From Escarpia spicata (lineage: Eukaryota; Annelida; Polychaeta; Sabellida; Siboglinidae): DNA of 64,000 bases. The DNA is taken from contig OZ023205.1 in assembly GCA_963995525.1 (NCBI GenBank), positions 43,409,618 through 43,473,617 of the forward strand, in the 5' to 3' direction. A program made the translations under genes and the position numbers. Positions 4,281 through 64,000 of this stretch are shown one piece after another. The stretch's first letter is position 1. Each line of letters opens with the position of its first letter. The notes under the pieces were generated by a model. It was not told where the DNA came from. It saw only the letters and a program-made list of their open reading frames with translations, and ran no database searches.

Positions 4281-4312
<32 letters not shown>

Positions 4313-4754: not shown

Positions 4755-4784
4755 ATTATATACATATATATATATATATATATA
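4755..4784. repeat. (TA)n microsatellite
   Basis: An alternating TA run just upstream of the LINE fragment that begins near 4797; it may mark the insertion site. Confidence 0.85.
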
Positions 4785-4796
4785 TTCTCTGTATAA

Positions 4797-13932: not shown

Positions 13933-14298
13933 CATAGACGCGGGAACAGGGGGGTAGGAGCTGCGAGAATGTTTGTTTTTGTGGCGAGCGTCAATGGCGG
14001 GTGGAAATGTAAATTTTATAAGACGATTAATGTGTATTTTTGTCGACTGTGAAAGGTGTGTGCAATTGGAGGGTAGACATATTGTTTTCTGCCGCCCCAG
14101 TAATAGGCAGTGCAGTGACGAAAAATTGTCAACACCATCGCCCCCCCCCCCCCCCCCCCGTCTTCCGATGTCACAGTCGAGCCATCCGAGACAGCCACAA
14201 GGTGAGGGAAGAATAGAAGGTATGCAGCGGTGAAAGTGTTTCAGTGGTGCTGAAGCTCCGTTGCCCCCCCCAATATGAATTTCGTTCCCGTGACACTG
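13933..14298. mobile_element. hAT-like MITE, copy 1 (366 bp)
   Basis: The left tip CATAGACGCGGGAAC and the inverted right tip CAGTGTCACGGGAAC form imperfect terminal inverted repeats. The flanking 8-mers CCTATTAG and CCTACTAC match at six of eight positions, as expected of an old hAT target duplication. The interior is homologous to 23426-23801 along its whole length and holds a run of about 19 C at 14141-14159. It has no coding capacity. Confidence 0.85.
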
Positions 14299-40176: not shown

Positions 40177-42235
40177 CTCGAGTCATGGTGTGTGTCTCAA
40201 GTCATTGTGTGTGTCTCAAGTCATAGGGTGTGTGTATCAAGTTATAATTAAGGTGTATGTATCAAGTCACGGTGTGTGTCTCAAGTCATCTCCGGATGGC
40301 CAAGTCATATCATAGGGTATATGTATGAAGTCATGGTGGGTGTCTCAAGTCACGGAGTGTGTCTCAAGTCACATAGTGTATGTATGAATGGGGTGTGTCT
40401 CAAATCATAGTGTATGTATGAAGTCATGGTGTGTGTCTCAAGTCATGGAGTGTGTCTCAAGTCATGGGGTGTGTCTCAAATCATATAGTGAATGTATGAA
40501 GTCATGGTGTGTGTCTCAAGTCATGGTGTGTGTCTCAAATCATATAGTGTATGTATGAAGTCATGGTGTGTGTCTCAAGTCATGGTGTGTGTCTCAAATC
40601 ATATAGTGTATGCATGAAGTCATGGTGTGTGTCTCAAGTCATTGTGCCTGTGTCAAGTCATAGGGTATGCGTATGAAGTCATGGTGTGTGTCTCAAGTCA
40701 TGGTGTGTGTCTCAAGTCATATAGTGTATGTATGAATGGGGTGTGTCTCAAATCATAGTGTATGTATGAAGTCATGGTGTGTGTCTCAAGTCATGGGGTG
40801 TGTCTCAAGTCACGAGGTGTGTCTCAAATCATATAGTGTATGTCTCAAGTCATGAGGTGTGTCTCAAGTCATATAGTGTATGTCTCAAGTTATGAAGTGT
40901 GCCTCAAATCATATAGTGTATGTCTCAAATCATATAGTGTATGTCTCAAGTCATGGGGGGTGTCTCAAGTCATGAGGTGTGTCTCAAGTCATGAGGTATG
41001 TCTCAAGTCATGAGGTGTGTCTCAAATCATATAGTGTATGTCTCAAGTTATGAGGTATGTCTCAAGTCATGGGGGGTGTCTCAAATCATATAGTGTATGT
41101 CTCAAGTCAAGAGGTGTGTCTCAAGTCATTAGGTGTGTCTCAAGTTATGAGGTGTGTCTCAAATCATATAGTGTATGTCTCAAGTCATGAGGTGTCTCTC
41201 AAGTCATTAGGTGTGTCTCAAGTTATGAGGTGTGTCTCAAATCATATAGTGTATGTCTCAAGTCAAGAGGTGTGTCTCAAGTCATTAGGTGTGTCTCAAG
41301 TCATGAGGTGTGTTTCAAATCATATAGTGTATGTCTCAAGTCATGAGGTGTGTCTCAAATCATATAGTGTATGTATCAAGTCATGAGGTGTGTCTCAAGT
41401 CATTGGGTGTGTCTCAAGTCATGAGGTGTGTCTCAAATCATATAGTGTATGTCTCAAGTCATGAGGTGTGTCTCAAGTCATGAGGTGTGTCTCAAGTCAT
41501 GAGGTGTGTCTCAAATCATATAGTGTATCTCAAGTCATGGGGTGTGTCTCAAATCATATAGTGTATGTCTCAAGTCATGGGATGTGTCTCAGGTCATGAG
41601 GTGTGTTTCAAGTCATGAGGTGTGTCTCAAGTCATGGGGTGTGTCTCAAGTCATGAGGTGTGTCTCAAGTCATGAGGTGTGTCTCAAGTCATGAGGTGTG
41701 TCTCAAGTCATGAGGTGTGTCTCAAGTCATGGTGTGTGTCTCAAACCATATAGTGTATGTATCAAGTCATGAGGTGTGTCTCAGATCATATAGTGTATGT
41801 CTCAAGTCATGAGGTGTGTCTCAAGTCATGGTGTGTGTCTCAAACCATATAGTGTATGTCTCAAGTCATGAGGTGTGTCTCAGATCATATAGTGTATGTC
41901 TCAAGTCATGAGGTGTGTCTCAAGTCATGGTGTGTGTCTCAAACCATATAGTGTATGTATCAAGTCATGAGGTGTGTCTCAGATCATATAGTGTATGTCT
42001 CAAGTCATGAGGTGTGTCTCAAGTCATGGTGTGTGTCTCAAACCATATAGTGTATGTATCAAGTCATGGTGTGTGTTTCAAGTCATGGTGTGTGTCTCAA
42101 GTCATGGGGTGTGTCTCAAGTCATGGTGTGTGTCTCAAGTCATGGGGTGTGTCTCAAGTCATGGTGTGTGTCTCAAGTCATAGTGCTTGTGTCAAGTCAT
42201 ATGGTATGTGTATAAAGTCATGGTGTGTGTCTAAA
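40177..42235. repeat. 19-21 bp minisatellite, about 105 units
   Basis: The basic unit is TCAAGTCATGAGGTGTGTC (19 bp), mixed with a longer variant built on TCAAATCATATAGTGTATG. From about 40,820 to 42,040 the two variants recur in regular orders, a higher-order pattern. GG, GT and GA versions of the middle dinucleotide form local blocks. Short open frames within it are a by-product of the repeat. Confidence 0.96.
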
Positions 42236-42481: not shown

Positions 42482-44176
42482 ATGATGTAAATATAATATG
42501 TGAACACGGTTGCTAGGACGAAGCATGACGGATGTCACGCCCACTGTTCGGATACTGAGATTCCGGAACCGCCAATTGTCCAAAACAAATATTACACATA
42601 AAGGCGTTACCACAATGTAGACCTATAGTGCATTGTCCGAGACGAGTCGGAAACGGCGCATAGGGACACACACAAAAGCCGTTTGCTTCATATCAACGTT
42701 CAACAGAGGTTGTACATACATCAAGGCCTATTATACAAGACCACCAGACAGACATTACTGTGGCACTGTACAATTACATTAACCACGCAGTGCAAAACTA
42801 CAATACACCTATTCAATTGTAGTAGTAATAGATCCGATTAACACATAATTGTGTCCACGTTTAACTGATTCAGCCTAAAATTAATGATGATTCCATTGGA
42901 AATGCAATGAGTCACCCCATACCAATGATCTTATTTAGTGTTGAAGATTTTTCGCGGTTCGAGGAGGTAGTGTTGGAGATTTTGGCAGTCCGCAACTGCA
43001 CCACCGATGACGCGCACTAATACATCAATACAATTCACAAAATATTGGGGGCTAAGCTCCCCACTAAAATGTGCTCAGCCCCCTACGTTTCCCCTGTTCT
43101 GACGCCATGGTACACCGTGAAGGTATATATCTTATAAAAGGAACCAGCGGCTCTAACAAACATAGGTAAAATGGACGAACGAAATGATCTAAAGCCCGGC
43201 ATATACGTCACGACTCGACTGGGTTTTAGTGTCTAGGACGCGTTTGCGATTATTTGTCGTGGCGTGTATGCCCCCCTTGCAACGTGACACTTATATCGAG
43301 GGCAGTCTTAGCCAGTCTTTATTGCGTTGTAAAATATCAAACATGCTTGATATTAAAGACACATAGTCGCAAACAAATAATGGCGTCGTGACGTGTATGC
43401 CGGAAACAAACAAATCGTCGCAAACAATTAGTCGCCCGCGAGACGGGTCGTGACGTGTATGATACCTCCCCGGTCTGCGACTCGTCGGCGACGTAATTTT
43501 TTGCCTTCTAAAATGTTTTGAGGCACTTAGCCAATCAGGAGCTATATGTGAAGACATAATAATTATAATATATGTGATAAATGTTTACGTAGGCTCTATT
43601 TAATTAGGCCTGTTAGCTTAAACACTAAGTTAAATTAAATTTTAAGTTTCTTTGAAACTTCGTATGTACTTAATATTCATAAGTGACGATTCATGTGGAA
43701 CCATAAGATAACTGCTTGTTCCTCTATGATGACTAGTGTTTGTAATACGTCGGAATATTGCACAATAACTAATTCTGACGCTCGTTTCGACCCAAAAGCT
43801 ATACTTGTAAACATGATCTCAATGCATGGAAAGAGTCGGCCTGATGCGAGTTTGAGTCATAAGTGACGTCACATCTCGGCATGCCGAAAAGCGCACCAAC
43901 GTTTTGGTGTTAAGCATCTAAAAGAGTTAATACAAACTAACAATTTCCAACTACAATCAAATTTTTAACGTCAGCGGTTTACCAGGAAAACATTTTTGAA
44001 CACACAACTACCGAATTTCTATGGACTACGCCATTGTTAGAAGAAAGTGACGTCACACTGTCGTAACTCGCTTCGTAAATTTTCTGCGTACTATTTGTTC
44101 CCAACTCCGTTAAGTGGCGCTATGGTACGTTTACCAATTGAACTATGTGCGCATGCGCTGTGACTGTGTAAATAAG
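42482..44176. other. Gene-free stretch with MITE remnants
   Basis: It contains a fragment at 43,035-43,110 resembling 34,807-34,870 in reverse and the MITE at 43198-43466. Otherwise nothing is recognised. Confidence 0.5.
43198..43466. mobile_element. Short inverted-repeat element (269 bp)
   Basis: The left end GGCATATACGTCACGACTCG and the right end, read inverted, GGTATCATACACGTCACGAC, form an imperfect terminal inverted repeat. Within it GTCGCAAACAA and CGTGACGTGTATG words recur in direct and inverted order. No target duplication is certain and there is no coding capacity. Confidence 0.6.
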
Positions 44177-46500
44177 ATGGCTTTACAATTCTTCGGAACG
44201 AAAACCAAATCGATTTCGAAGCAACTGGTTACCGGTTTGAACCACAAAAACAAGGGCCTGTGTTGGAAGATAGGGCAGAGGCGCGTGCCGGTGGGCACGA
44301 ACAGGAAGGCCCAAGGCGCATACCATGCCGAGATGAAATTGACTGGTGTCGGTGAGGAAAATGCCGCAGCGATCTCCGTGGCTTGTTCAGGAACAAGAAC
44401 TGAATATGTCTGCTGCCAGGAGGCGGTTGCTACTCGACAGCAACGCTGTTGGTGAAGGTAATTATTAATCTGTTTAGTTTAGTTTATAACCGTTGAGCCT
44501 AAGTTCCGGGCTGTATAAGAACAGCGAGAGACGATCGCTCGGGTCGGGACACGTCACTTGTCTTACATTTGGGATTGGTTGACGAAGTTAGTTAGATCTC
44601 AGACTCAATCAATGCCACTGGACTCAGTTTTTGAACTTTATGTTTAACATGTCCATTTTAGAATACCACCCATGACTATACCCTCACTTTTTAAAAGAAA
44701 TGTAGTTGAATGGTTCCGTGATGCATGTGAGCCAAAATTGTACAGGGCAGAGCTATGATTGAAAATAAGCAGGAATTAACTCCCTTTTGTTCTATCTCCG
44801 TCGACACTCTTCACATTCGCAGTAATGGCTATGCATGTATGTGCATGTATGAACAATATGTGGTAGTACTACTTTTTAAACACATGGTAGCAGGTAGATA
44901 TATTATTTTAACTTTATGCGTACTGCAATTTTTCTGCCCAAAGTTTACATTGGCTCTTATGAATAAAATGTACCTTGACAATTTTTCAGCCAGAGCCCCC
45001 ATTAGTTTTGGTGACCAAAAAAATGACCACCGTTTTGTGTAAATATTGACACATTTCAAAACGGCCTTCCTTAATCTGCATGATATGTCTATGGACCCAG
45101 GTATAATACTGGGATGAATACTTTGTTAAATCTGTTCAGAATAATAATCCATGTTTGCTTAACATTTGTGTAAAACTATTATTAAAATGCCTAATTCTTT
45201 GTTACAGGTGGACTGCTGTGCATTACAAACAGCAGAGGATTTATAATTCTTTGTTTGGAGCAGGTGATGCTGCAGAATGGGAATTAAACCATCCAACAAA
45301 CAAGTACGTATATATGTGCATGCATTGTTACAAGACCAGTGAAATGTGTTGTTAAATATTTATTGAAATGTATTAATAATGAACACAATACAACATCATA
45401 GCACTACCAATACAAATATATATATAGATAATTTTATCAGCAATCTCATGCCTGATGCCCAAATTATTAACAATCTTCCATGGAAATTACTTAGTGGACT
45501 TACCATACGTCATCTACCATCCACGTGCTAAGCAAATTCACATCATTGAACTAACTACCATTTGAACCTAACATCAAGAAAGATCATATATTTAAAACTA
45601 ACAAGTATGTCGCACTAATCCATGATGTAAACAATAACGGAATAAAATCAGAATTAACATGCATTGAAATAGGTTGCAGAGGCTATGTATCTGAACCCAA
45701 CAAATCTAAGACTGACAACCTCCTTAAAATCTCTTGGAATATAACCACCAACAAAACAACTAATTCAATTGTATGCTTGTCTAAACTAGCCCTGCTAACA
45801 CCATTCACCCTTTCTAAATGTAAAGACGAACCACACTGGTTTGACCCAAGACTAATTTAAATATGATGACCATCACCCTAATATGACAATAATTACAAAA
45901 TAACATTTCCCTCAATAGCAAGTAATTCTATACATAAATGTGTTCATTTTCAATACGACTTACTTTAACCATTAGTCATTATTTACCTGCTACAATATAC
46001 ATAGCTATTTACTACAATATACATAGCTATTTACTGTATTCACACATGTACTTGGGTTATCGTTTCACACTTTATTGTATTCTACTGTATGAATAAATTG
46101 ATACTCTCTCATTACAGAACAAATTATAATGGTTAAGTTATCATAACATATAGATGCAATGTTCATTGCACCGTCATAATTTGTTATGTAGTACAAAATG
46201 ACCAATATTTGCCTTATTCCAGATGTTTAATGGTAAACAATTTATATAAAGGAATGGTGTCGTTATAGAACCGATTTTTATATGTCATTTATTTACAATG
46301 TCACATGTTTATTTGAGCCTAATTTATTTCAGGTCTCTCAGGTGGGCTGCATACAGACAGTTTACCTGGTGGATCCATGGCAAGCTGGGACGAAGATACA
46401 GAGAGTTCTACCAGCATGCGCCAGCCATGGAATAAGATAAAGGTTCCCTGCCCCCGACGGGGGACAACACAAGGGATACCACCCTGGACTTGAAAACTAA
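44177..46500 (+). pseudogene. P2X7-ballast-domain-like gene, locus A, decayed
   Basis: Three exons: 44177-44457, 45208-45303 and 46333-46500, with good splice sites. Together they carry the conserved order of the cysteine-rich domain at the C-terminus of vertebrate P2X7 and in stand-alone invertebrate proteins. In order: DWCR, GKC (44341-44364), then EYVCCQEA (44402-44425), then LLCITNSRGFIILCLEQVML (exon 2), then LRWAAYRQFTWWIHGKLGRR, then VLPACASHGIR and RFPAPDGG (exon 3). The pieces sit in different frames. A TGA replaces the second Cys of WCxC, and a TAA interrupts IR-RFP. Hence at least three frameshifts and two stops: a pseudogene, unless long-read indels are involved. It faces transposase remnants on the minus strand, stop codons 46 bp apart. 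Confidence 0.72.
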
Positions 46501-46546
46501 ACTAGACAATGTACATGTGACCTGTGTAGGTGGGTGGTGGCAGTAT

Positions 46547-46700
46547 TTACTGTTTCTTTACAAATTGACTGACTCTTGCTGCCAGCAGATCCTCCTTCTC
46601 TGGTTTTGGGACATCTGCCCCAGTGACTGTGATCGGATGCAGTGTGATATTTCTTTATAAACACATCTGTCACTCGATCCGTGAGCATTTGTAGGTGGGT
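46547..46700 (-). pseudogene. C-terminal exon of the locus A transposase-like gene
   Basis: On the minus strand MLTDRVTDVFIKKYH (from 46688) shifts by one base into PITVTGADVPKPEKEDLLAA and RVSQF, then a TAA at 46549-46547. The pattern (a helix, then a P-rich part, then ELV/LLA...SRF) is the usual end of the transposase-like family at locus B, whose own end reads PPPTAELVRRHRSR. One frameshift is present. Confidence 0.6.
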
Positions 46701-47393
46701 ACGTTTATACAGTCACTGTATTTTGATATCATGTTTTGATTTTATATTTCTTTAATACAATTTGTGATAATGGCACAAGTGCTCTTATTTATTTCATTAC
46801 AGACAATTGCATTCTGGAATGTAATTATTACACGGAGATGTAATTTATTACACTCAAGTAACTGTACTCATAAATGTACACAGCAACTGATTACAAGGAT
46901 TATGTAGGGTGATACAGAATGAGCACTATCCATCTGTGTTTTCGCCCCCTCACATCTGAGTGACTAAACTACTGAAAAATTGGTCATCAGGAACTTTGAC
47001 TATGTAACATTTTTGGTCCCATACATAAGTCGGTGGTCCACATATTAACACATAACACGTAAACAGCATTTACATTATCAGTTTTGGAAGTCTGAATAAA
47101 CACATTTACTGATGAGGTAGTAGTCATGCTGGCTGGTACTTTTGAGTAGCCATCCTGAAAAAAACGAGTTGGATGCCTATGAAATGCAGTAATTTCGAAA
47201 ACTTATTATAATGTTAGTTATGCATAGGAGCTGATTTAGTGTATTTGGGATTCAAGTTGGTGACAGGAATTCACCTTACACTACTTGGGTCGTGGTCCCT
47301 ACTCATCATCTACTGATTGCAAATTGAAAGGTTACTTGTTGCTTTGGACATGCCTCAGGTATAAAATGAATACATATCAAGTTTGGTACTTAC

Positions 47394-47528
47394 TTCAACA
47401 ACTGTGCGTCACCGTTGCATGTTGCACAACACCACCACAGATGGTTTGATACATTCTGTATCCAATGAAGGAGGTCCTCGCATCCCTTGCCTGGGCCCTT
47501 CGCAGTAAACTTGCGGTTGATGCCTTTC
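47394..47528 (-). pseudogene. Internal exon of the locus A transposase-like gene
   Basis: Bounded by a CCAG acceptor and a perfect GTAAGT donor, the minus strand reads KGINRKFTAKGPGKGCEDLL, then HWIQNVSNHLWWCC and TCNGDAQLLK. It aligns with exons 8-9 of the locus B gene (AKNLGKRLSE...WCKDIVTHFWHCAEVAEGS) and with the wider family pattern D-WH-K-L...W...I.NH.W.C. The exon is open, so it decayed later than its neighbours or is under some constraint. Confidence 0.75.
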
Positions 47529-48675
47529 CTGGCATGAAAAACATTTTAGTATTTTTTTCTTAAAAAAACACTTTCATCTGGGTTGTATCCCCTTAACTAA
47601 AATTGAGTAACATTATGTAATTTTACTAAATACAAATTTTTAACGTTTTACAATAGAGTATGTAGTGATATTCTTCGTCACATAAACAGTAGTCACACAT
47701 AATTGTATACGAAGTCCAATTATATAATTAACATCATGACATAAATGATAGGCCAAACATTTCGATATATGACAATGTCTAATGCAATATTATTGGATGC
47801 AGAACGTATTTTTTTTCATTTAACAAAATACAGTAAGTTTTGCAATGTTATTATAAACGACAATCATTCCAGCCCATGTTAATCCGTTACTGTAATTAGG
47901 GAGGTCGGTGAAAATGAAATAATTCATCAGATTGGCAAATGTGATACACCATTGGAAAGGTCTATTTAAGAGATAGACAGCCATATCAGTTTTAAATCTC
48001 TGTGATTGGCAAAGTTATAGGCAATTATGTAAAGGCCATTGAATACATTTGTGTAACAGTTTTTTTGATCTGAAGGAAATGTGAAAAAATTATATTGTAC
48101 AATATAAAAAACTTAGCTAAAACATGATATTTGATGTATTTCCTTTAAATTTCATTTACGAAAGGAATTATACATAAAATTAAGTTAATTAACTAAGCTA
48201 CTAACCTTTTGGAAAAGCTTACAAAAGTATCTCCAGGTCCCCCACTTTCAAATCGTCATCCATAATATATATATACGTCTACACAATATATCTGGCTCGT
48301 TGTCATACACCACACTGAACCAGCTTGGGAAGCCTGCTACCCACAAGTTGGAGGATATGCTTTAATGGTTTCCATTATGTGGATAACAAAAAATCTGACA
48401 TGTTTTAGAAGGTGTAGGTGTACCAGCAAAATCATGTGGACGTTAGTGAGTACGTGCATGCATGTCATGTATGCAAAGTTAGTAAAGTGTGTGTGAGAGT
48501 ATAAACATAGCGAAATATTTCATGCATTGATGTAAACATTCTGATTTGGCCTTGCACCATATACTTATGTAAACATAATTTATATGTAGATTTGTGTGTG
48601 TGTGTCCGCATGTGTGCGTAAAATTTGTAAAGTGAGAAGGATAGCCAACTACTGCAAGCAACAATAAGCATTCCA

Positions 48676-49150
48676 CTACACGGCATGCATGTACAACATT
48701 ATATATATGTATATATATATACATACATAATATATATATATAATATGTATTGCTATACAACTTTGAATTATCTGATGTAATGTTGTATCTGCAAAGATCC
48801 GTTTGCAGAGAACAGCAATGGCTGGAAGTAGGATATGAAGAATCACTTCCGCATTTGCATCTACACCAGAAAGCATTGTCAGCATTTCAAACACATTGTC
48901 CTTCTTGATCCGAGTAGAGTCTCCAAAGATAGGCGTACTCGTCCCACTCATGAACTCATTGATGTTTCTGCATGACTCCTGGCAGAATGACACGAGTTGC
49001 TGGTAGTGAATATTCATGTCCAAGATGTGATCACTCTTGTCTTCGATCATGCATCAGAGGGGCAGGTGATCAGCTTGCTGATGAGTCCAAGTGTTTTACA
49101 TCCAGCGAGAAACTGTGGTGTTTCTAAGACGTTAGAACAGATTTCAACAA
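48676..49150 (-). pseudogene. Unidentified coding remnant
   Basis: Two adjoining readings on the minus strand look coding: CIRQVVEICSNVLETPQFLA then GLISKLITCPSDA, and after one frame change IEDKSDHILDMNIHYQQLVS and onward to AIAVLCKRIFADTTLH. The composition suggests amphipathic helices, as in ARM/HEAT-type proteins. I cannot name a family. It lies between transposase exons of locus A but does not match locus B, so it may be an unrelated captured or host fragment. Confidence 0.35.
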
Positions 49151-50070
49151 CCTGTCTGATGCACCTTTTTTATAGAAAGCACCGCATTTCATTGCTTAAG
49201 AAGAATGTCTTTGCAGCATTCGAAAATAAAATGTTGAAAAAGCATGCATATCAATCACTGCTGAAGCAAAATGTTGCACTGTACCAACACCAGGAAATGT
49301 TAAATCATGTTATATATTCATCTACAAATTAAATACTTCTAGGAAGATACAGTAAAAAATAAAAAAAACACCACCAAGCCAATGTTTATACATGCAGTTA
49401 GTTACAGCAAGATCAATGCAGTGTAATTATAAGTACATTAGATGTCTAATTTATGGAGGGGGTTGTCATTTATTTGTTGTCATTTGTTATTTACTGTGCA
49501 TGATTATAACATGAAAACAAACTTAAAATATTCATATAACGTCCACCATTTAATACCTGATAGCATGTGTGTGCACATGTAAACACGAATAACAAATGCA
49601 TGGCTAAAACACAACTTCAGAATACAAGACTGCAACAATGTGTACGCCGGGTATGTGAGCGATAATAGAAGAAATTCGTTGCCGGACATGGGGTACCGCT
49701 ACGTTCGAGCTTGGGGCAAAAATGGGCAAAGGTGTATCTCCGCCAAATTTGTATTAATATTACGTTTATACATTACTAAATGGCACAGGTGTAGTTTGCC
49801 AGAGTTTCCACAAGCTGTTCATACCTTAAATCCTCTCTAAATATGACCAATGTTCAACATATCATATTTTTCTTAATTTTATTTCAATTCATACAAGAAA
49901 CACGTCAAAAGAAAGAGCATCATTTTGCGATTTCAACCATACCGACTAACATAGCATAGCGGGTAATAATGCAAGTACGTGATTTTATGAAAAACACCTC
50001 CCTTCCGCGAGATTAAATATGGCTGCATCCGCGACGAAATTTCGGTGGGTGTCGTTGTTTAATTTTCACC

Positions 50071-50935
50071 AAACTGTTCAGTCAAGTATCATCCTGTGAA
50101 GATGCTGAGAAACTTCAGAAGGACCTAAACAACTTGCACGGGTGGAGTGCAGAATGGACAATGTTGTTTAATGCAGAAAAATGCAAGTATGTACATTACG
50201 GTCATAACAACAGGCAGTACGACTACTTCATGGGTGATAACCCCATAGAAACATCACATGTAGAAAAAGATTTGGGAGTGATAATAACAGACACACTTAA
50301 TGTAACGGAGCAATGTGTTAAGGCATCAAATAAGGCTAATGCGATGCTAGGCATGATCAACAGAGCTATCAAATATAAGACCAAAGAAGTAGTTGTAAAA
50401 CTATACAAATCCTTAGTAAGACCTCACCTAGACTACTGCAAACACAAAAAGATATAGACTTATTAGAAAAGGTGCAACGTAGGGCAACCAGGATGATTTC
50501 AGATTTAAGTCACTTAGATTACCAAAGACGTTTAAGAGTGCTAAATATCACAACTCTGGAGACTAGACGACTGCGTGCTGATTTACTGGAAGTTTATAAA
50601 ATATTCAACGGGTTAGAGAGTATTCTTCCTGCAGATTTCTTTGTTATGGAAAATAAACAGACCAAAACAAGAGGGCACCCCTTCAAAATAACCAAAGTGC
50701 ACTCAAGATTATATATATGCATGTACTCCTTTACTCAAAGGATAGTTAACGACTGGAATAGACTTCCGGAAGCAGCAGTGATGTCCAAAAACATCAACCA
50801 GTTCAAGAATCACATTGACAAATATTTACGCAATAGGGCGGAGGATTACACGAGTCAACGTTTGACTCCCTTCCTCGCTAACTCCTTGACTACTAAGTAG
50901 AAGAGGAGGATTCAAGGTAAATTCAAGGTAAATCA
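50071..50935 (+). mobile_element. 5'-truncated CR1-like LINE
   Basis: The reading starts at KLFSQVSSCEDAEKLQKDL and continues with WSAEWTMLFNAEKCKYVHYG, VEKDLGVIITDTL and SLVRPHLDYCK (to 50457). After a small deletion that removes the usual QVW...P stretch it resumes as KVQRRATRMISDL and runs to the stop at about 50,900. The 3' end has a duplicated ATTCAAGGTAA, in keeping with the short direct repeats that end CR1 elements. It lies inside locus A on the strand opposite to its transposase. Confidence 0.93.
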
Positions 50936-51313
50936 CGAGTATCTGTATGAAGCATTACGAATTCACAAAAGCAGGTATTTCTATCACAAAGAAGACATAT
51001 TTATGTTTCTTTTGATATAAAATATATGATCAGTCTTTATAAATCAAGGGACTTACACTTTTTTAAACATAGGCGATTTAACATTGCATCCCAATGCAAA
51101 CGCGTTTGCGTGATTTCTTCCGACCTCCCTACTGTAATATCGCTCACGCGACTTGATTGCCGTTAACTTTTGCTATTCGGCTATCTTCTAAAGTCGTAAA
51201 CTCTTTATGGTGCAATATAGTACATTATGGTACTGTTCTAGCTTGCCTCCAGCATATCTTGCATCTCAAATGTAAACAGATTATAATTGGATACCAAGTA
51301 ACTAGGTACTAAC

Positions 51314-51645
51314 CTTCTTGCGATCGATTTCTCGGCGGCGGCGCGTTTGATCGAAAATATGCGTCGCTTCGACGGCTGAGGTCCGTGACTAAATATCGTA
51401 GGCACTGCACCTGGCTTCAAACATCGACGTCGGCGACGTTTTGTCGGATCTTGTGTCATTAACTGATGATATAGATTTCCTTCGAAGCACGTTTCTTAAA
51501 AATGATCTGAACATAGTCACAGTGCGTTGTATTTCGAAGGCTTCCAACCAGCCCGTCCACAGTTGTGAATCCACTATTTCACTTCTGGCTCATTATCCTT
51601 CGCTGTACTATTGTTACAACCGTATGTAGAGCAGTATGGCACATT
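51314..51645 (-). pseudogene. THAP-domain exon, broken
   Basis: A THAP zinc finger binds DNA through C2CH residues and ends in AVPTIF. On the minus strand: VPYCSTYGCNNSTAKDNEPE, then WIHNCGRAGWKPSKYNAL, LCSDHF, ETCFEGNLYHQLM, and LKPGAVPTIF, followed by basic residues and a GTTAGT donor. All zinc ligands are recognisable, but TAG, TGA and TAA interrupt the frame. A stretch after NEPEV (normally SFHRFP) is missing, and the start ATG is out of frame by one base. THAP domains occur at the N-terminus of several transposase families, and this exon lies upstream of the locus A transposase exons on the same strand, so it is probably their first exon. Confidence 0.75.
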
Positions 51646-51856
51646 GCAAGTCACGTTTTCACTGGTAAGTTCAACTAATATAACGAACCGCATCCCATGA
51701 ACATGTGCCAACCACGCGAACTACGCAAGACAGCGTGTCGTACACGGCAAAAATAATGCTGCTCGTTGATTGGTTGCTTTCGACCAAATGAACGCATCAT
51801 CACTAAGATGGCAGTCTACATGTTATCGCAGATTTCGTTAGAATCTTTCACTTTAA

Positions 51857-52538
51857 GGTAGGTAGTATGGATTCCACCAAAAATCTTTAGTTTTCAACAC
51901 AGATCAACCATATTTGGTATGCAGATACATACCAACATAGTTAAGTTTTTTTCATGTTTCGCATAAATTATGCAAATTAGGTATCCAATATGGCCGCCAT
52001 AATAGGGAAAATTTTGTATTTTTTGCCGCGCTCTAACCAAAAATGTATTCAAGTTACAAGCTTGTAATTTAGCAGAGGGATTACTGTTATGCATATCTAC
52101 TGCATGAATATCACAGAAATCAGATATGTTGTGTTGTTTATGTGAAAACAATTTTTTTCTAAAAAACTTATTTTGTGTAACTTTTTCACATAATTAACGC
52201 CTATAATTCAAAAACCATTAATAATATATTATGATTTCTTTTAATTCATGCATTAGATATACCCATTAGGCACTGCAAAATTTTTTGCAGTTATACCCAG
52301 TATTTATTCTACTAGAGTGCAGCAACTTTAAGTACTCACAGCAAAAATGGTATTCCGAGAATACGATGATAAAGTAATTTTTATAACAAAATTCTGCCAA
52401 AAGCCATCCGAAGAAACCTCAATATTGCCACTTTTTCAGCTAATATACTAACTGCATATTGAGGTAAGGATATGAAAGTACATAAATAGCAAAGAAAGTC
52501 CTTTTCAAAAATCACTTTTTGAATCCATACTACCTACT
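51857..52538. mobile_element. MITE flanked by TTAA (682 bp)
   Basis: GGTAGGTAGTATGGATTC at the left is mirrored at the right as GAATCCATACTACCTACT, and both ends abut TTAA (51853-51856 and 52539-52542). TTAA target sites are used by piggyBac and Kolobok elements; the tips do not look like piggyBac. No coding capacity. It separates locus A from locus B. Confidence 0.85.
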
Positions 52539-52990
52539 TTAAAGACTACATTCCGAGTAAACCACTTAACTGATAATTTTGATTGTAGATGCAAATAGTT
52601 AGTTTGTGCCGACTCTTAGGTGCTTAAAGGTGCTCAATCATTTCAATTTATTGCTCCTGACGTGTCAGACTAATTTCAACGTAATCGTATCAGGTATTCA
52701 TTATTGATACACTGGTTCATTTGTACGTATGCTTTACTTCGTTTTAGTGAAATTAACAGACAAACAATAACAATGATTTTCGGTCAGTCCTAACCGAATA
52801 TCAAGACACATATCTGAACTTGGATGTGGTCTGAGATAGAATTCTCGTGTAATAGTCACGTGAACGGGAATATGCGGCGACATCGGCTTTTGACCCCACC
52901 GTGCGGTGCCTGGATTCATTCAGCATTGCGTATTTACGAGTCGCCATCCATTTTTCGTATACAAGTCGTAGCTCGATAGTTTTATCTGCA

Positions 52991-55900
52991 ATGAAGGGAC
53001 GCCCACGGATATATGTCACCGACTCGGCTAAAAAGAGGGTGAGAGCGGAAAGACAAAGAGCGTATCCGCGTACAAAGGTGTATATTGGAAAGGTCATGGA
53101 TTTGTGGAACCAAACGAAAGAAACGGCTGGCGTGAAAAGTGATTCAGCATTCGCCAAGGTTCTTCTGGACAGGTTAGTAATGTTGAATTTATCAGCATCA
53201 GTAACACGTATTTAGGCGTATGAGGGTATATGGAGATTATGTTGCTTGAGTCAAATTGGTTTTCTACTTTTAACCAACGAAAGGTAGTCGTCGAGTTGAT
53301 ATAGCCAATTAATATAGTATTATCGCCCACATCGGTGCAGGCCTCGGCCCATGGTATGGGCATGCCTATGAGTATGAGGCTATGTATGTATGGCTATGCC
53401 TATACTATAGGCGGCCTACCTGCTATCACCTAGCAAGGACGTACGTGACAGGGACATGCTAGCAGGCATGGGACAATTAACTTTGGAATAAAATTAATGA
53501 AATTACAATAAATCATGATATATATTTCAATGATCAAGTTATATGTTTACAATTAATATTTTGATCAAATTAAGAACATGTTCTTAAATTTGATGTAATA
53601 TCATTGATAATCATTTTATTTGGTCACATTATTTAATGCATAGACTAAATATAATCATAATAAAAAACTTGGTGGTGTAATTGTAATTAATTTGAACATT
53701 TTAGCTTTAATTTGCAGTAGCACCCACCGGACATTCACATTTTACTAAGCTCAATTGCTGACTGACACTGGTTGGACCTTTCAGACTGAAAACATAATTG
53801 CCTGGAGCTAACCATAAGTACTTGCTTTATTGGATGTCAGTTGAGTCACTGGCTGCTTGTAGTGTGCACTTTGATCAGCAAAGCAAGTTACATTTACTGA
53901 CAGCAGATCAGTGACAATCACCTCAGGAATCACATAATACCCAGTAAAACACAGCTAGTCTAAAGCCCTGCGTGGGGCGGGTTTTGGCCCCCGGGCTTGA
54001 TTTTTGTTGTTGTTGCGGTGCGGGTTAAGTTTCAATTTGTGCAGGGCGGGTCAGGTCACTGCGGGCTAGTAATTTCTACATGCGGGTTACTGCAGGCTGA
54101 TTTTTTAAACTCATTAATGGTCACCAGTTACTCAAAGGTGGGACATTCTTTGAGCTAGTTAATTGGGGATTACCTGATTGCCCTTTTGTTTGTGTTTAAA
54201 CAGTGTTATGTTAACATGTGCTGGCCTGCCTTCTGCTTCAGTCAGGTGTGATTAGTGGCTTCTTCCAGGTGGAAGTATCAGTTCAGGCCATCAATCTGTT
54301 TGTGTAATTAAGCCACCAGGATGTCCATAAAGAGCAGTTACCCCATCAATTAGACAGGAAGTGCCTTTGATGTGTGGAGACTGGAGACCATGCCACTTGA
54401 CACTGCTGACAGTGCTAACTGCTAAGAACAAGAACTGTCAGTCTGCCTCTGTAGAAGTAAGATGGCTCAAGTCAAACTGCCTTCTACACTAGTATAATCC
54501 GGTGCCAGTAGCCTGGTCCAGAGGGGATTTTGAAAATATAAATTGCAACTTCTAATATCTGCAAATTGCAACACTGCCTTTGTGCACCAGACTCAACCTT
54601 TGAACAACTCATGTTTATGCAGTACAATGGCAAATAGATTATAAGATCATAGGATGCCACTGAAATTAATGCCAGCAGTGTAAATTTCATTGTTCTTCAT
54701 AAAAAAATGATCAACTGCCATTGCATATTCACTTGTGCTGAGTTATATCAATTAATTAATAATTTTAAAATACGTTAAAATTGTACTTGTACCTTTACTT
54801 TGTCCCAGGTCTGCTTATCACCTTCAGGTATTTACATTATAATGACAAGGGTTCTATTTGTCTTAAAGATGGAATTCCAAGTACGACATGGTTGTCACCC
54901 ATCACCGTGCATTTGTTAATATTGTAAACAACAACGATTAATAAAGATGATATATTTTTAATGATTCCATGTCATCTGTTGTGGGCTGCGGGGCGGGTGC
55001 GGGCTGACTTTTGACTAATTACTGCGGGGCGTGTTGCGGGCCAAGTTACTGCGGGGTGGGGCGGGCTGCGGGCCAGGATGTGGCAAAATATGCGGGGCGG
55101 GCTGAGTTGTAATATGCGGGGCGGGCTGCGGGTCGAACGACATAGTTGCGGGGCAGGTGCGGGCTCAGATTTCCAGCCTGCGCAAGGCTTTAACAGCTAC
55201 CAATTGACCTTTACCCATGTCTACACAATAGTAGTATGATACTATGAGTTTGACTACCATGTTTTGTATGATATAAATATATCTTTACTTGCCTTCAGCA
55301 ATATAGAATAAAAAATAACACTTCTCTACTGGTTTTCCATGTGTGATGTACAACATTGAATGCTGATTGTAATAAAATATAAATTTAATAATCTTGTATT
55401 ACGTAAATTTAAAGAGTAGTAATAATTTAGGATTTTTTTAGAGAATGCTAAACATTTATACATATATTGTGACCGTAATAGTGTACATATTACCAGGGGT
55501 AAGCGCCCAAAACTGCATGTAGTATGTATAGAAGTATGTATAGAAAGAACAGTTTATAAGTTACATCTCTGAAAAGTGTGGAATATGTATACACATTGAG
55601 AGAGATCTTTTAGGCCTCTATGCTAACCTTAGTTTGATAGTGAGCAAGAAAACAAGTACACCGGGTGCATGAACATAGGAGGAAAATTAATTTTATTCTT
55701 TCTGAAAGGTATTTAAATAGCCTGGATATTATTTTGATGTTATACTATTTATGTGTAGTAGTACTATTAAAAATGTCAAAATTAACCAATTTAGGCCATT
55801 CCACTTTATGCCTTCACTTGACAGTTTCATCACAAATATGCAAACGACGTCAACACCAATCCAGCCACCACAGACAACAACCGCTGCATTGGCTCTATGG

Positions 55901-58900
55901 AGTATCAGTGGTCACAGTAAAACCAGCTCACTGTCAGGTATTCAGTCTCTTCGTGAGGCTGGGTGTAGCTCTGAACCATTACAACCAATGTAAGTTTACG
56001 TAATGGTATTAATGTACTGTTATGTTCTGGTTTGACCAGTCTAATTTCTGTACAATTATTCCATCTTTGTAAAACTGTCAACTACATAACACATTTCATT
56101 TGCAGTTAATTTTGTCAACTTAATTTTCTTTTTATTTCATTTGGAATTTTTGTATTGCAAACATAAACATGTATATACAATGCAAGTAAATACACGTGGC
56201 ACAATATAGCCAAGCCTCAGTGATTGTCCTTTCACAATAATTATGCTTATGCTGGGGCACATATCTACTAAAGCCTGCAACTGCTTTAATGTTACTTCAC
56301 ATGACATTTTATCTCACTAATCACCTGCTGGGTCGCACAGCACAAGATGCTTATGTTCAGTTACTGATTTGTATTTTTGAATGTATATTTTATTGTGTGT
56401 TCAGAAATCAAAATTAAAAACTTAATTTGACCTGTTTAAACAATACAATGTGTGGAATGATTTTAATAATACGTAAGGTTGGGGAGACTGTTAGTAAGAC
56501 ATATGATATAATGTCGTTAGCATGGGAGCTGCCTCACAAGTGTTGCTATGTTGCTAACAATAGTTAATCAGTACACTTTGTTGCAGTATCCCATATGAAG
56601 ACGACCCAATGGGATTGGAAGCTGTGGATCCTGGTGATACATCGTATCAGTTTGGAGATGACACACTACGAGAGATACATCAGTAAATATTTATATTATG
56701 TAAAATTTTATATATGTATATATATATATATTATATATATATATATATATATGTGTTTCATGTACAGTAACAAATGGTTACATTTGTGGTAGTTCACCAC
56801 CGACAACCTTTTCTTCTGGTTAGCATTTTTTAAATGTCAATCCACCAGACCAGCACATTTTCTCCTGAAATTGCAAGTGCTGTTATGATAACATATTAGT
56901 TTTGTTTTCATAGTACTTTAATTAATATTCTTCATTAAAATGTGTTACAAAAGGTGTTTCTTTCTGTCATTACATATGGTACAGTACATTTTTTATTAAA
57001 CCACTAATGGACAACATTTATAGCAAGTTTGTAGATATTCCGTTAACCAGCTTTTTAGTTGATATGTTTGTCTGCTACACGTATGTACGCACTAATTAAT
57101 TGTACATTATTGCAGAGGAAATATTATATGATGTCATGTTTGATGTATTGATTTCATAGCAATACTCACTGCTTTGCTTTTTAAATGTAGATGTCGCATC
57201 GACATTGCCGGTTTAGAGAGCGTCACCACATGTGATTTAGTGCACGATTTGGAAGAGACGGTCAGTGATACCTCCAGTCCAGGAGAAGAAGAAACAACGA
57301 TGGTGACAACAGCAGAAGACATCACAGGGAAACCCTGCTTCATTGTTTATGAAGAATGTCTACTGGAACTTGCAGCAATGAAGGTATACACTTTTCTTTG
57401 ATAATCATGAAACATACTGGTGGCATAAGTATAACTAACAATAATAACTTCATGCCAATCCGTAGACAAAAAACATGTGCATCACTGAGGGGGTAGTTTA
57501 AAAATGATGGAGACTTGTTTCTATATTTTTTATGAATATATATATTATCGGGTTTGGGGTCAATTGTAATTCGTAATTGTGTAATTAATTACAATTATGG
57601 TGTAATTGAAATATTTTATTAAAGTTTCGTAATTGTAACTGATTTTGTGTGTGTGCCGTAATTGCAATTCAATGACATCCCCATAATTTCTCCAATTGTG
57701 GGTAAAACTCCCAGAACTGTTTTTTTATTTCATTATGCCAACTAGTCTTTATTTGCCTTATTGACTTGGCACATTGGAAGCACTGATAGAGAGATAAAAC
57801 ATGGCTTCTCTTCCATTGGGGAGGGCATATAGAGCTGACCCATTGAAGCACTAGCTCTAACAGTAGCAGGCTTCAGCAGTTGACAAGTGTCAAGTAGGAG
57901 GCCAAGAACAAATGATAGGCTTGTGGTCCAGTGCTACATGGGCTAGCTGCAGTAATTGTAATTTAGTTAAATAAGGCTGTGCACTAACACTATCCTTTCA
58001 CTGTGGAATTACTTTCTAGTAAGCTTGAAGGCAGCAAGGTGCTGAGAAGCCAATTGTGTGGTAATGATATAATGCCACCAATCTATTGTAATTGACAATG
58101 ATAATTGACTATATTTTGAGATGGTAATTGTATTTGAAATGCAAAATAATTGTAATTGTAACAGTACTAACTGTAATTGATCAATGTAATTGAACCCAAC
58201 CCTGTATATTATATATATATAATAGAGAAATCAGTTTGAATTTTGGTGTCATTACATGTTATCATACTTTTTCACAACTGGAGAAGTCATGGGAACATCC
58301 AGGAGGGCCTGTAGGACATGTTCCTCCATAAACCTTTGGAATGTGCCCCCCATTTTGTTGATCTTTATGAGGGTGGACTTTGACACTCTTAGAGAACCTT
58401 AGATTGTTTTTTTTTCTGTGAACCATGGGGGTGCAGTTGGGGGTTTCTTGAAGAGCCCCCATGTTGTGTTTTGCCAAGCCTGCATGGGGATGCAATTGGA
58501 GGTTTGTGATGAGCCTCAGTCCCTCCTCAAATATTCACAGAAATCTTATGCCTGTGTATTACTCTCTATAAATTACCTCTCACACTTATAAATTTGTTTA
58601 TTGGTCTAGGTAGAAAAACTTTGCAAAGTCAAAGGATGCAGACAGTCATATGACTTGAATCTGAAGCACGTTGGAAGTACTGCTGTACTTGTGTGGGTGA
58701 GTACAGTTCAGATTTGGGGCAGAAGTACTCGGTACTCGAGTATATTTTTGAAGTACTCATACTCATAAAAATTATGGGTCATGGATTCGTACTTATACTC
58801 ATTGTACTCCGATTTTATGAGTACATTATGAGTACGTCTGAGTAGTTTCTAAATATGCACTGGGGAAAATAAATTTATTTGGTTATAAAATGAAATTTTC

Positions 58901-61900
58901 TTGGAATATTTAAATGTTGAACTATTTTTTAAATACGTTGTTATTTCTGAAAGAATACCACCTTACCATCCCTACACATAGTACATCCTCATTCTCTGAT
59001 AACCATGACTATGCTAGTACCCAAACATGGCAACGGGCAGCATCTTTTCCCATTCAGAAACACCCTGTTAAACAAACAATAATTGTAGGTTAATCACTCA
59101 GTTCATGCCATAATCCTGTTTGTTAATTAATTTAATTGTTTATATTAATCTGCTCTGTTCATTTGTGTAGTTGTGAAATTTGGTATGACAGTTACTTGTA
59201 CCAATCTGTTTGCAGTGCAGTTCCCTTATGGATCATCACAAAATGTTTATGTCTGATATCATACAAAATAATTTTCGTTTGGGGGAGGGATGGGGGTTGA
59301 TGCCAGATGAAATTAATTTTGTCTGATATTGGATATCAATGTTGTTAAATGATCCCTTACTGCTGCCATATAAACATCTTTATTAGTAAAAACTTGCATA
59401 TACAGGGTGTATATATTTCCTCATTCAGTTATATATCATTAAAAGTACACATGATGCAAATTATATTCATATTCACATTGGCTGTACAAAACGTCAACAT
59501 TAATCAACAAGTGCCTCACATAATTAACCTAACTTATGCATAATCATCTCATACAGAATTATGCTTTCAGACCTGCCCAAAGGGACACAAGGGTCGTAAG
59601 TGGGCCTCACAACCTCGGCTTCGCAAGCGGGGAGTATATGCTGGTGATTTTCTCCTGGCAACAAACATTTTGTTGTCAGGAAACAATTACACAAAAGTGG
59701 CGCTACTCTTCCGCTTCATGTGCCTGGGGATAGTGAGCCCGGCACAGTTCGACAGGATACAGTCACTCTACATCGTTCCTGCAGTGATGGAGTACTGGGA
59801 GAAGCTCAGGACCACAACCATTCAGCAACTGCAGGGCAAAGCACTCATCCTCGCAGGTAAATGGTCACATTAATATGTACCTATGTTGATAACCTGTACC
59901 TGGACTTATTTTTCATACATATTTATATTATGGCATATTCATCTAAGGCACATTTGTATTATCTAATTTATAAACATAGTATATGTTAAACAATTTATAT
60001 CACATAAATTCTAATCACTAATTTCACATAATGTAATTACGTTAAGTAGTAATTGTCGATATTACTATTACAGAATATACAGTTATTTTTAACAATAGAA
60101 AACTAGTACCCCTTGACTGTTCGTAAGATGGTAAACAACCCGTATGATATGTTTCAGTTACAGTGTATAGTTAACAACTGTGTGATACATTTTTTTTAGG
60201 AGATGGACGAAATGACAGCCCAGGTCACAGCGCACAATACTGCTCATATACACTGATGGACTGCGAGTCAGGCAGTATTGTGTCAACAGTAGTGGTCGAC
60301 AAGAGGGAAGTCAACCTTAAATACCCCAACATGGAGAAGGTGGCACTTGAGAGGAGCCTCACCCTGCTGTCAGGCACTCTGCAGATTGCAGAGCTTGTCA
60401 CCGATGCACACACACAGATTGCTGCCTTCCTTCGTGAGTTATCTTAGTTGTACAGAAAGTGGACTCTCACAAAAAAACAGTAAACATTTATCAATTGTAA
60501 CGTTAGGCTTACAAATTTATGTACGTTTTCAATTATGTTCTTCTGGTGAATATGCTTTATCCAACTATTTGACAAGATATTCAACTTTGTAATTGATGAG
60601 CATGCTCATGACTAGTGTACACAACATGATAATGTGTATAAATGAAAATAAAAATTGTATGTGCATTTTAAGTCCTACACATTCATCCAAGCTTCGAAAA
60701 AACATTATGCATGATGTGTACACGTTTTGTGTGTTGCTTGTGTGTAAAGACAAATGATCGATACATTTCAGCTGGTATGGCTGCAAAGCATACATACTAA
60801 ATAAGTTATTATATTTTAGGAGATGAGTACCCACAGATCCTTCATCAGTGGGACATTTGGCATGCAGCAAAGAACCTGGGGAAAAGACTGTCAGAGGTAC
60901 ATGTTTCATTGTGAACGAATGTTGTTGGTGTATTAAAGAAGGAGCAGATCAAGGACAATGTTTCCATGTCTGTTATGTTTGTAGTTACATCAGCATATGT
61001 AACAAAATAAGATATGAATAATGTCAGCTTACAAATTATTGAAATGTGATGAAACATTCCAAAAGAATTATGAATCTTAAGTGGAGCGTATTAGCACAGT
61101 GGGAAGAGCTTCGGACTCTCGACTCAGAGAACGTGGGTTCGAATCCTGTGCGATGGTGTCAAACCTTGGGCAATTTTGTTTACTCTACATTGCTTCAGTT
61201 CACTGTATCAGTGAGTACCTGACTGTAGACAGTAGTTGATATTTGTTTACGAATAGTCTTCATGCATTAATTGCAGCATGGGTGAATGCTTCCAAGAGAT
61301 ATGGTGTTCAATTGAACAGGTCTACCAGGGAGTAAAATTGTAAAGCACTTTGAGCAGCCCTGGTGACTGGATACTGCACTATATAAGAACTTACCTTTAC
61401 TTTACGATTATGACTACTATGAAGCATCGATAACCCAAACACTTTGGTCCCTAATGTACGTGCCATGGCTGATGAGGTTCTACTCTATTGATGGGCCATG
61501 CCATACCATAGTCTGAGCTGGCAGAAATTAATCATAAACATAATAACAGTACATTTTGATATGATGGGTGTATCAAATGCTATCAATATATATATATGCA
61601 CCCATATATGTTTATATACCATACCATAAATATAAAACATTATGTGACCCTACCATCTGCTATTTGCCAGGTGTCTAGTAACCGTGCAAACAAGGCTTTG
61701 GGACCTTGGTGCAAGGACATCGTGACGCATTTCTGGCACTGTGCAGAAGTTGCAGAAGGTTCTGAGGAGCGATTCAAGGTAATTGTTTTTTAAAAACCTG
61801 TTTTCTTTACGTTGTCACAATGACCCATGTTAACTCTGCAGGAGAAATTATGTGAGTGTTTCCATTGACATAAATATAAATGATTGATGTAGCAACATTA

Positions 61901-62633
61901 CTTATTAATTTTGAAAAAAATACCAATATTTAAAAACTTAGAAAACATTAAAATGTGGCTTTGTGTGAAGAAATCTAAAAGAGTACCACGAACATTCTTA
62001 GAAGAGTCAAAAGGAAATAGTAAGGCACAGTTAGAACAAGAGCAAGATTTATAGGATGCATATTGAGAAAGGTTTGTGTAACAATGGAGAGAACGTTCTA
62101 GAGTACAAATAATAGATAGATAGATAGTCTGTAAACATGGTTTAGAAACAGAACTGCTACTAAATACAAATGAAAGAAATTGGAGGACCATGATTGTCAA
62201 TGTCTGCATAACATGTAGCAGCAAGAAAAAGAGCAGCTAGAAGAAGACCATGTATGAATTACTTTTGAAGAATATGGTGTCACATTTATCTAAAAAATAA
62301 TTCATGCCACAGTCATGGAAATAGTTATTTTGTCTGATTTAAAGGTACAGGAGGATGTACAGCAAAAAATCGGGAAACTGGTATGCTGTTCCCATGAAGA
62401 CACGGAAATCCTACAGTTACATAATCGACATGCAAATGGATGCAGTTCGTCGCAGAATGGTTGATACAGAATCAGTGTCAAGACGTCGCGAATTGATGGC
62501 AGAAGATCCCCGCCGAATCAGTCGGACCATGGCACCCACTGCTCCACCACCAACTGCCGAGCTAGTGAGGCGTCACCGCTCCCGGATGTCCAGAAACCTC
62601 CGGTCTACAATGACGTCTGGTCAATCAAGCTAA
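52991..62633 (+). CDS. RNase-H-fold transposase-like protein, ten exons (locus B)
   Basis: Exons: 52991-53172, 55795-55989, 56587-56682, 57191-57383, 58610-58696, 59571-59856, 60200-60433, 60820-60896, 61671-61778 and 62351(or 62345)-62633. All have AG/GT borders, and phases agree through exon 9. Exon 1 is basic, ending FAKVLLDR. Exons 2-4 are a linker. Exons 5-6 carry a zinc-like CKVKGC...CPKGHKGRKW. Exon 7 holds AGDGRNDSPGH (first Asp) and LVTDAHTQI (second Asp). Exon 8 holds WDIWHAAKNL, and exon 10 has RRMYSKKSGNWYAV. This order is that of a transposase-derived family I know from predicted fish and invertebrate proteins. The block between FK (exon 9) and RRMYSKK, about 130 residues with the last acidic residue, is absent. 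Exon 9 ends in phase 0 while exon 10 needs phase 2. So it is a damaged or domesticated copy. Confidence 0.85.
53960..55193. mobile_element. hAT-like element in intron 1 of the locus B gene (1.2 kb)
   Basis: The tips CTAAAGCCCTGCG and, inverted, TTAAAGCCTTGCG form terminal inverted repeats. The flanking 8-mers CAGCTAGT and CAGCTACC match at six positions. Both ends are rich in GCGGGGCGGGCTGCGGG-type repeats (54,975-55,165 on the right); the middle is ordinary AT-rich DNA without a transposase. Confidence 0.75.
57549..58204. mobile_element. hAT-like MITE with perfect 8-bp duplication (656 bp)
   Basis: It is flanked on both sides by TATATTAT. The tips CGGGTTTGGGGTCAATTGTA and, inverted, CAGGGTTGGGTTCAATTACA are inverted repeats. 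Subterminal DNA on both ends is packed with GTAATTG/CAATTAC words, possible transposase binding sites. It lies in intron 4 of the locus B gene. Confidence 0.88.
58715..58860. repeat. GAGTA/TACTC-rich patch
   Basis: Short words GAGTACTC, GGTACTCGAG and ACTCATACTCAT recur in both orientations. It resembles the subterminal part of a hAT-like element, but only one side is recognisable. Confidence 0.4.
59230..59355. mobile_element. Foldback MITE family F, copy 2 (126 bp)
   Basis: GGATCATCACAAAATG at the left and, inverted, GGATCATTTAACAACATTG at the right enclose a G-run core. The right half aligns with the copy at 42256-42481 (GATGAAA then TGATAT). It is in intron 5 of the locus B gene. Confidence 0.65.
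61079..61405 (+). mobile_element. tRNA-derived SINE, copy 3 (best preserved)
   Basis: The A box TAGCACAGTGG (61092-61102) and B box GGTTCGAATCC (61136-61146) both match the pol III consensus. A conserved centre with CAGTTCACTGTATCAGTGAG follows. The tail AAAGCACTTTGAGCAGCCCT...CACTATATAAG resembles the 3' end of the L2-like LINE at 23350-23410 (AAAGCGCCCC...GCGCTATATAAG). It lies in intron 8 of the locus B gene. Confidence 0.93.
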
Positions 62634-63928
62634 CCGACTGACATGGAAGCCAGTGTAAACCCCATTTGCATTGGGGAATCGATCCCTAATGCGGCTGACC
62701 ACACAACTGGGGATGACGCGACGGATGTTTGTCCCGAGTCGGCCATGTCGCCACAGGACAAACTGCCTGTAAGCAGCATGTCGCAGGGCTGCCGAGTCGT
62801 GTCCGGGGTCCTGCGCAAAAATGTCTGCCCAGTAGGCCATGTTGATTTGTAGAACTAATGGCTCCAGACACACTAGTTCAATCTCCTGTAAAGATAAAAT
62901 TGTTATAGCTAAACAACGTTGGGCATCATTGCAATGTTGGGAGTAAATATGGAGTATTCATTGTGGTAATCCGTATAATTTTTTTGATGAATGACCTGAT
63001 ATACCTCATACATATTGGCATATATCTTGCGAGCAGTGAGTATTCCACAGGGGATGGTTTCAGTGGGATGTAGGGGGTGATACAGCAAGGATAACTTAGT
63101 GTAACAAAAAAGGTGATGATGTATTTTAATTGTATGAGGTCGTTGTCATTAAATTTATTGTTATTTTTTATTATGAATATTAATTAAAATTGCCATCCTG
63201 GCCAGAGTCAATATTATACATTGATGTGATAGCTGCTAACTGGCAAGGATTATGAAATGGTTTTCCTGACAATACATCTCAGTTTCTGTCATGTGTAACT
63301 ATTACAGCTACTCTTGTTTGACATTTCAAGATGCTGCCTGAACGTCAAGGTTACATCGTCATGGGAAATGTTGTAATGCCAACATTTTAGATTGGTCCGG
63401 GTGGGGGGTAGGCGCCTGGGCTTGTAGCACTTCAAGTGCATCGAACACGATGCCTGGATGCTCATTGACAATTGAGTGCAACAAACAGCGCATCGACGTT
63501 GCATCTAACTGCTCTATTGTTTCCATTTGTAAATGAATGCAAACAAGTTATATTTTTGTAGGTGTTATATGGATGAATCACTCTGGGTTTAATGTACAAA
63601 TGCATGATGTTGAATAATGATAACAGCTTTTTTCCATGACTACATGTGGATTTGGTGTGAAAATGTAATGTTTACATGAAGGTTTTTTCGTAAAGTAAGT
63701 AAACATAGTTTCTATATGTATGTCTATGCAGCCGAAGATATATTTAAAGGTGCAATTAAAACTGTTAATAACCTATGTGTGGTTAATTGTTGTATATGAT
63801 ATTACCTGAGTTGAACGAATGCGGGCCTCCCGAAGCCTACGTACTCTCTCGATATCAGCCTGACTTAGCCGACATCCTCTGCCACCCCTCCCTCCTCTCG
63901 TCCTTACACGCTGGTTGCGGGGTGGCAT
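62625..63928 (-). CDS. P2X7-ballast-domain-like gene, locus B
   Basis: Minus strand. The first exon, 63928-63806, starts MPPRNQRVRTRGGRGGRGC and ends at a GTAATA donor. A likely second exon begins about 63508 (QLDATSMRCLLHSIVNEHPG) and is open to a TGA about 55 codons later; its donor is uncertain. The last exon, 62885-62625, follows a clean TTTACAG acceptor and reads EIELVCLEPLVLQ, then LRHAAYRQFVLWRHGRLGTN, IRRVIPSCVV and RDRFPNANGVYTGF to a TGA. This is the C-terminal half of the ballast domain; vertebrate P2X7 uses this fold, with a zinc cluster, in its cytoplasmic tail. There is no P2X channel part. The WCxCGxC and CC block was not found between the exons, so the gene may be incomplete. 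It overlaps the transposase-like gene tail to tail. Confidence 0.78.
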
Positions 63929-64000
63929 TTATCAACATCAAAACAGATGTATGAACTTAATCACATGTCACATGAACATCCTTTTAGTATTGCACATTCC

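Follow-up and report, generated by a model that had tools for sequence, protein, structure and literature searches.

Two probable Kolobok-type DNA transposon insertions that carry a transposase gene and a P2X7 ballast-like KolX gene tail to tail

Within a 64,000-nucleotide stretch of DNA (contig OZ023205.1, positions 43,409,618 to 43,473,617; hereafter the window, whose own numbering is used below), two loci, designated A and B, were found in which a gene for a DDE-type transposase and a gene for a protein similar to the ballast domain of P2X7 lie on opposite strands, tail to tail. This arrangement had been proposed by a sequence-only reading of the same DNA, and Pfam, tblastn and a profile search confirmed it at both loci. 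The region very probably represents two independent, decayed DNA transposon insertions of the Kolobok type (Kol0 lineage), each encoding a DDE transposase and the ballast-like protein KolX. According to passages of Kojima and Bao (2022, PMC9587614), Kolobok transposons of the Kol0 lineage carry genes for a transposase and for KolX, a protein that shows the fold of the P2X7 ballast and is similar to P2X7 residues 476-595; P2X7 itself arose when KolX was fused to it, and Nanor is likely to be KolX in domesticated form. In the same passages, the Kol0 lineage is reported from vertebrates, annelids, cnidarians and sponges. The sequence-only reading knew of no description of such an element; in fact, a paper of 2022 described the pairing of transposase and P2X7 ballast and connected it with how P2X7 arose, and loci A and B are a further example of this pairing.

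Kolobok elements are characterized, in passages of PMC6004289, by a DDE transposase, a THAP domain with AVPTIF, H2CH, TTAA and AG ends. At locus A, terminal inverted repeats enclose both genes. The recognized parts of element A are as follows.

43910..43988, forward strand: left terminal inverted repeat, starting with TTAA (E-value 4e-10 against the window)
44335..44436, forward strand: possible remnant of the Cys-rich exon of KolX A, with two in-frame stops and a WCxxxxCR-like pattern, doubtful
46337..46500, forward strand: C-terminal ballast exon of KolX A, disrupted by a frameshift near 46402 and by an in-frame stop
46547..46648, reverse strand: C-terminal piece of transposase A, weak (best match P0004, E-value 0.038, among the 120 transposases listed)
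47405..47509, reverse strand: core piece of transposase A after the DxxH motif (tblastn, and profile independent E-value (iE) 6.6e-11)
51391..51657, reverse strand: N-terminal THAP domain of transposase A with the AVPTIF box and three in-frame stops
52551..52627, reverse strand: right terminal inverted repeat, ending with TTAA (52624-52627)

The segment 43910-43988 and the reverse complement of 52551-52627 are identical at 60 of 79 positions (76%) with 2 gaps, and a search for terminal inverted repeats and TTAA, one of the checks suggested beforehand, yielded this 79-bp pair around A. Because both arms begin with TTAA and flank both A genes from outside, they are read as the ends of element A, which would span 43914-52623 (8.7 kb) with TTAA at 43910-43913 and 52624-52627 as its target site duplication. 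When the DNA of 43000-50000 was compared with that of 52500-64000, this end repeat was the one match that stood out (E-value 1.7e-9); the runner-up with the dust filter on was 23 bp long (E-value 0.006), and the extra matches obtained with dust off were AT-rich runs. The end repeat scored 55.4 bits. As a control, 1-kb segments of the first 39 kb of the window were paired at random 100 times; 93 of these pairs lay far enough apart to be usable, and none of them scored above 28.3 bits. The end-repeat pair had been chosen before the control test, and therefore the E-value is a fairer measure than the control ranking.

Both genes of element A are broken and recognizable. The ballast exon matches Pfam P2RX7_C (E-value 6.7e-7, with X at the stop) and is matched in tblastn, at E-values of 10 or less, by 65 of the 68 ballast relatives (best E-value 7e-7). 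The transposase core is matched by 42 of the 120 queries listed (best tblastn E-value 2.5e-10), and the THAP domain, with its AVPTIF box, matches Pfam THAP at 1.1e-12 (with X at the stops). The position 46547, given by the sequence-only reading as the transposase stop, is the stop of the weak C-terminal piece. A profile search, likewise suggested as a check, gave an iE of 6.6e-11 for transposase A and 8.6e-4 for ballast A; in the reversed window there was no ballast match under 1 and one transposase match at 0.77. The proteins behind the profiles had been retrieved with locus B as the query, so this test is independent for A and not for B. The doubtful Cys-rich remnant overlaps a weak profile match at 44305-44370 (iE 0.62, no Pfam match). 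Three other candidates were set aside: the reading frame from 44180 (no Pfam match), a ballast-like match at 48791-48868 on the reverse strand inside the element (E-values 0.016 and 0.012, taken as chance), and a transposase profile match at 51580-51867 on the forward strand (iE 0.067).

Two further sequences lie inside element A. An insertion of about 680 bp (51857-52538; region 51851-52544) has 24-bp inverted ends that are 96% complementary and include TTAA on both sides; it begins with GG, ends with CT, and looks like a nested non-autonomous TTAA-targeting element. At 50017-50900, two open reading frames resemble the C-terminal part of a non-long terminal repeat (non-LTR) reverse transcriptase; Pfam RVT_1 gave an E-value of 0.033, below the cut-off, for the first and no match for the second.

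Locus B (52991-63928) shows the same two genes in mirror orientation. Relatives of transposase B were used as tblastn queries, and the counts below refer to high-scoring segment pairs at E-values of 10 or less.

52991..53170, forward strand: first recognized exon of transposase B (52994-53170 corresponds to P0035 residues 9-66, E-value 5.5e-7)
57191..57383, forward strand: transposase B exon with GT/AG borders (P0007, E-value 0.004)
58610..58696, forward strand: transposase B exon with GT/AG borders (P0007, E-value 0.007)
59571..59856, forward strand: transposase B exon (116 of the 120 queries listed, best E-value 3e-27)
60200..60433, forward strand: transposase B exon with the first and second Asp, in GDGR and TDAH (120 of the 120 queries listed, best E-value 3e-37)
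60820..60896, forward strand: transposase B exon with the DxxH motif, DIWH (50 of the 120 queries listed, best E-value 5e-12)
61671..61778, forward strand: transposase B exon (46 of the 120 queries listed, best E-value 6e-16)
62345..62633, forward strand: last exon of transposase B, with stop (20 of the 120 queries listed, best E-value 2e-15)
62625..62885, reverse strand: C-terminal ballast exon of KolX B, with stop (Pfam P2RX7_C, E-value 1.9e-17; PDB P2X7 chains, E-value 2.9e-9)
63392..63526, reverse strand: middle exon of KolX B, cut before the Cys motif (85% identical to P0180, E-value 2.7e-20)
63806..63928, reverse strand: putative N-terminal RG-rich exon of KolX B, with ATG (proposed from its reading frame and GT donor, no homology match)

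The transposase exons end at the stop at 62633 and the ballast gene stops at 62625, so that the two tail-to-tail genes share 9 bp. The extents first assigned to the two loci were corrected: transposase B begins by 52991, and element A reaches 52627. The joined transposase B exons found 138 relatives, and the 120 of them that were listed served as queries. Among the matches listed, relatives came from oysters, fish, corals, echinoderms, acorn worms and annelids; the best E-values belonged to oysters, at 41-42% identity over about 90% of the query. The highest identities among them were with fragments: 74% over 33% of the query for Lamellibrachia satsuma, 70% over 25% for P0117, 58% over 35% for Ridgeia piscesae, and 58% over 24% for the fish relative P0107. 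Lamellibrachia satsuma and Ridgeia piscesae are siboglinid annelids, and the host may be an annelid related to the siboglinid tubeworms.

KolX B consists of three recognized exons from 63928 to 62625, and similarity to the P2X7 ballast, a Kol0 feature, is present at both loci; the KolX pieces of A and B are 58% identical over 43 residues, with A read across its frameshift. The middle exon ends at PHPDQ, where P0180 continues into WCICGRCRH. This Cys motif was not found in B; it is present in 17 of the 68 database ballast relatives, many of which are fragments. Repeats of at least 40 nt within 42000-64000 were tandem or AT-rich only. In a search for the ends of B, the stretches at about 50901-53000 and 63901-64000 shared no exact inverted match of at least 9 bases. 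The right-end TTAA of A is flanked on each side by a copy of AGGTGC (52618-52633). Position 52628, where TTAA is followed by AGGTGC, is a possible left end of B; if the second AGGTGC is that end, A and B may abut at a single TTAA.

The same gene pair was recognized elsewhere. In three of the 68 ballast relatives (P0124, P0127 and P0129), the open reading frame clearly runs past the ballast end and matches the antisense of the last transposase exon; in P0123 the antisense match is weak and covers a short stretch. These four may not be independent of each other. A scan of genome contigs with the transposase alignment gave six pattern matches, one of which was a related locus. This is a 14.9-kb contig (L001, 1-14909) with transposase exons on the forward strand at 856-9789 and KolX exons on the reverse strand at 12691-11591; the two genes face each other tail to tail, and about 1.8 kb separates their matched parts. 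The contig includes exons for a zinc finger, for the probable third catalytic residue (RSTAELENF, in which one E would be catalytic) and for the ballast cysteines. The contig is filed under a Bathymodiolus brooksi gill symbiont genome. It is probably host (mussel) contamination, because exon-like pieces of animal transposon genes are spread over 12 kb, and thus probably mussel-like animal DNA. It may start inside the transposase gene; in a search for element ends, its segments 1-1500 and 12601-14909 had exact inverted words of at most 10 bases in common. No related locus was found in the scans of viral contigs or in genome contigs with the ballast alignment.

As judged from the superfamily, the transposase would bind the terminal repeats and cut the element out, the excised element would be pasted into TTAA, and KolX would act as an accessory protein of the element. 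A and B are read as separate insertions of different families. The inverted repeats of A, its THAP domain and the pair found elsewhere support the proposal of the sequence-only reading that the pair represents the two open reading frames of a large DNA transposon. Its description of the second copy as mirrored and far more intact holds for the orientation and for the better preservation of B, but B is also broken.

Several observations weigh against the assignment to Kolobok. With TTAA as the duplication, the termini of A are GC...GC and not the Kolobok 5'-RR...YY-3', and the alternative termini AG...CT would be bordered by TTA at one end and by TAA at the other, which is not a clean duplication; A is a single decayed copy, and for this reason its first base is uncertain. 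As for the DDE triad with C/DxxH, B has both Asp residues and DIWH, and the exons for the zinc finger and the third acidic residue are absent between 61778 and 62345 (the corresponding exons of the mussel-like contig matched the window in tblastn at E-values of at least 0.8). Because these two exons are missing, B probably lacks the third catalytic residue. For transposase B, the only Pfam matches were to MULE and Mutator, both of them sub-threshold, and THAP was found neither in its recognized exons nor in any of the seven relatives scanned, including P0024, named THAP-type in its source. The right end of B probably falls outside the window. The proposed Kolobok membership of A and B rests on the features described and on the published pairing of transposase and KolX.

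A second explanation, also raised by the sequence-only reading, is a linked host gene pair, derived from an old transposon, duplicated in inverted orientation and retained for a host function. Domesticated KolX-like proteins are known (P2X7 and Nanor, in passages of PMC9587614), and B is better preserved than A. However, both genes are broken at both loci, and TTAA-starting inverted repeats bound A, the locus for which element ends were seen. The end repeat alone stood out in the comparison of A and B DNA, so that the two loci are not one recent segmental duplication, an outcome named beforehand as contradicting a mobile pair. No support was found for a duplicated host pair, and it is very unlikely.

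Equally little probability is given to a piggyBac-type element, likewise TTAA-targeting, that acquired a KolX-like gene. It would account for TTAA at the ends of A, and the Kolobok purine-pair end rule is not clearly followed there. The transposase pieces, however, match no piggyBac Pfam model among matches at E-values of 1 or less, and DxxH in B and THAP in A are features given for Kolobok (passages of PMC9587614 and PMC6004289). Passages of PMC9587614 also describe the piggyBac KolX-like proteins as without most Cys residues. A chance meeting of unrelated fragments, to which the short and decayed locus A with its weak C-terminal transposase piece (E-value 0.038) might lend some color, is contradicted by best E-values that range between 7e-7 for ballast A and 3e-37 for transposase B, by the reversed-window control without comparable matches and by the identical gene order elsewhere, and is scarcely credible.

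Outside the two loci, the window contains a tandem array of about 2 kb at 40177-42232 (19-bp unit, about 105 copies) and another at 1198-1978 (45-bp unit, 17.3 copies).

What KolX might do for a Kol0 element can be approached through the guanosine site of P2X7. On the PDB P2X7 alignment, KolX B has residues equivalent to R546-H547 and R578 of rat P2X7. Of the 68 ballast relatives, 66 showed the block with RH, and 58 of these retain RH; R578 is retained in 56 of 62. As passages of PMC7776569 describe, the P element requires GTP, which positions the P element ends in the active site. Because the guanosine site is partly kept and the related P element needs GTP, a nucleotide-sensing or end-positioning role for KolX is suggested by analogy, although such a role is improbable. 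Similarly improbable is the idea, drawn from these residues, that KolX is a guanine-nucleotide cofactor protein of the Kol0 transposase and would do in trans what the P element transposase achieves with a GTP-binding insertion domain of its own. If this were true, the guanosine-binding P2X7 ballast would be a captured part of a transpososome. Against a guanine-related function, R574 is kept in none of 62 ballast relatives, and KolX B is without the equivalents of R574 and K583.

The published view of the P2X7 ballast as an accessory protein of a DNA transposon is borne out here from raw sequence, through the window, which may be annelid, and a probably mussel contig, and A provides one copy with both ends in view. 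Passages of Rump et al. (2020, PMC7016195) trace the ballast (ZCD) domain through the animals and report that, across invertebrates, ZCD genes are linked with two markers; transposon, transposable and transposase are mentioned 0 times. One of the markers may be the transposase.

Compared with Kol0 as described in passages of PMC9587614, A and B share a DDE transposase and a ballast KolX in one element, and A also shares TTAA and THAP; they differ in that both are broken, the recognized exons of B are without THAP, and the end rule is not clearly followed in A. KolobokP, in passages of the same paper, likewise has, downstream of its Kolobok transposase gene, a second gene that is read from the opposite strand, but this accessory gene encodes a His-Me finger nuclease in place of KolX, and KolobokP has long terminal direct repeats, of which none were seen at A or B. 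P2X7 differs in its channel, which is absent at the A and B loci, whereas its ballast and Nanor share with KolX B a homologous domain in which the R546-H547 and R578 equivalents are retained.

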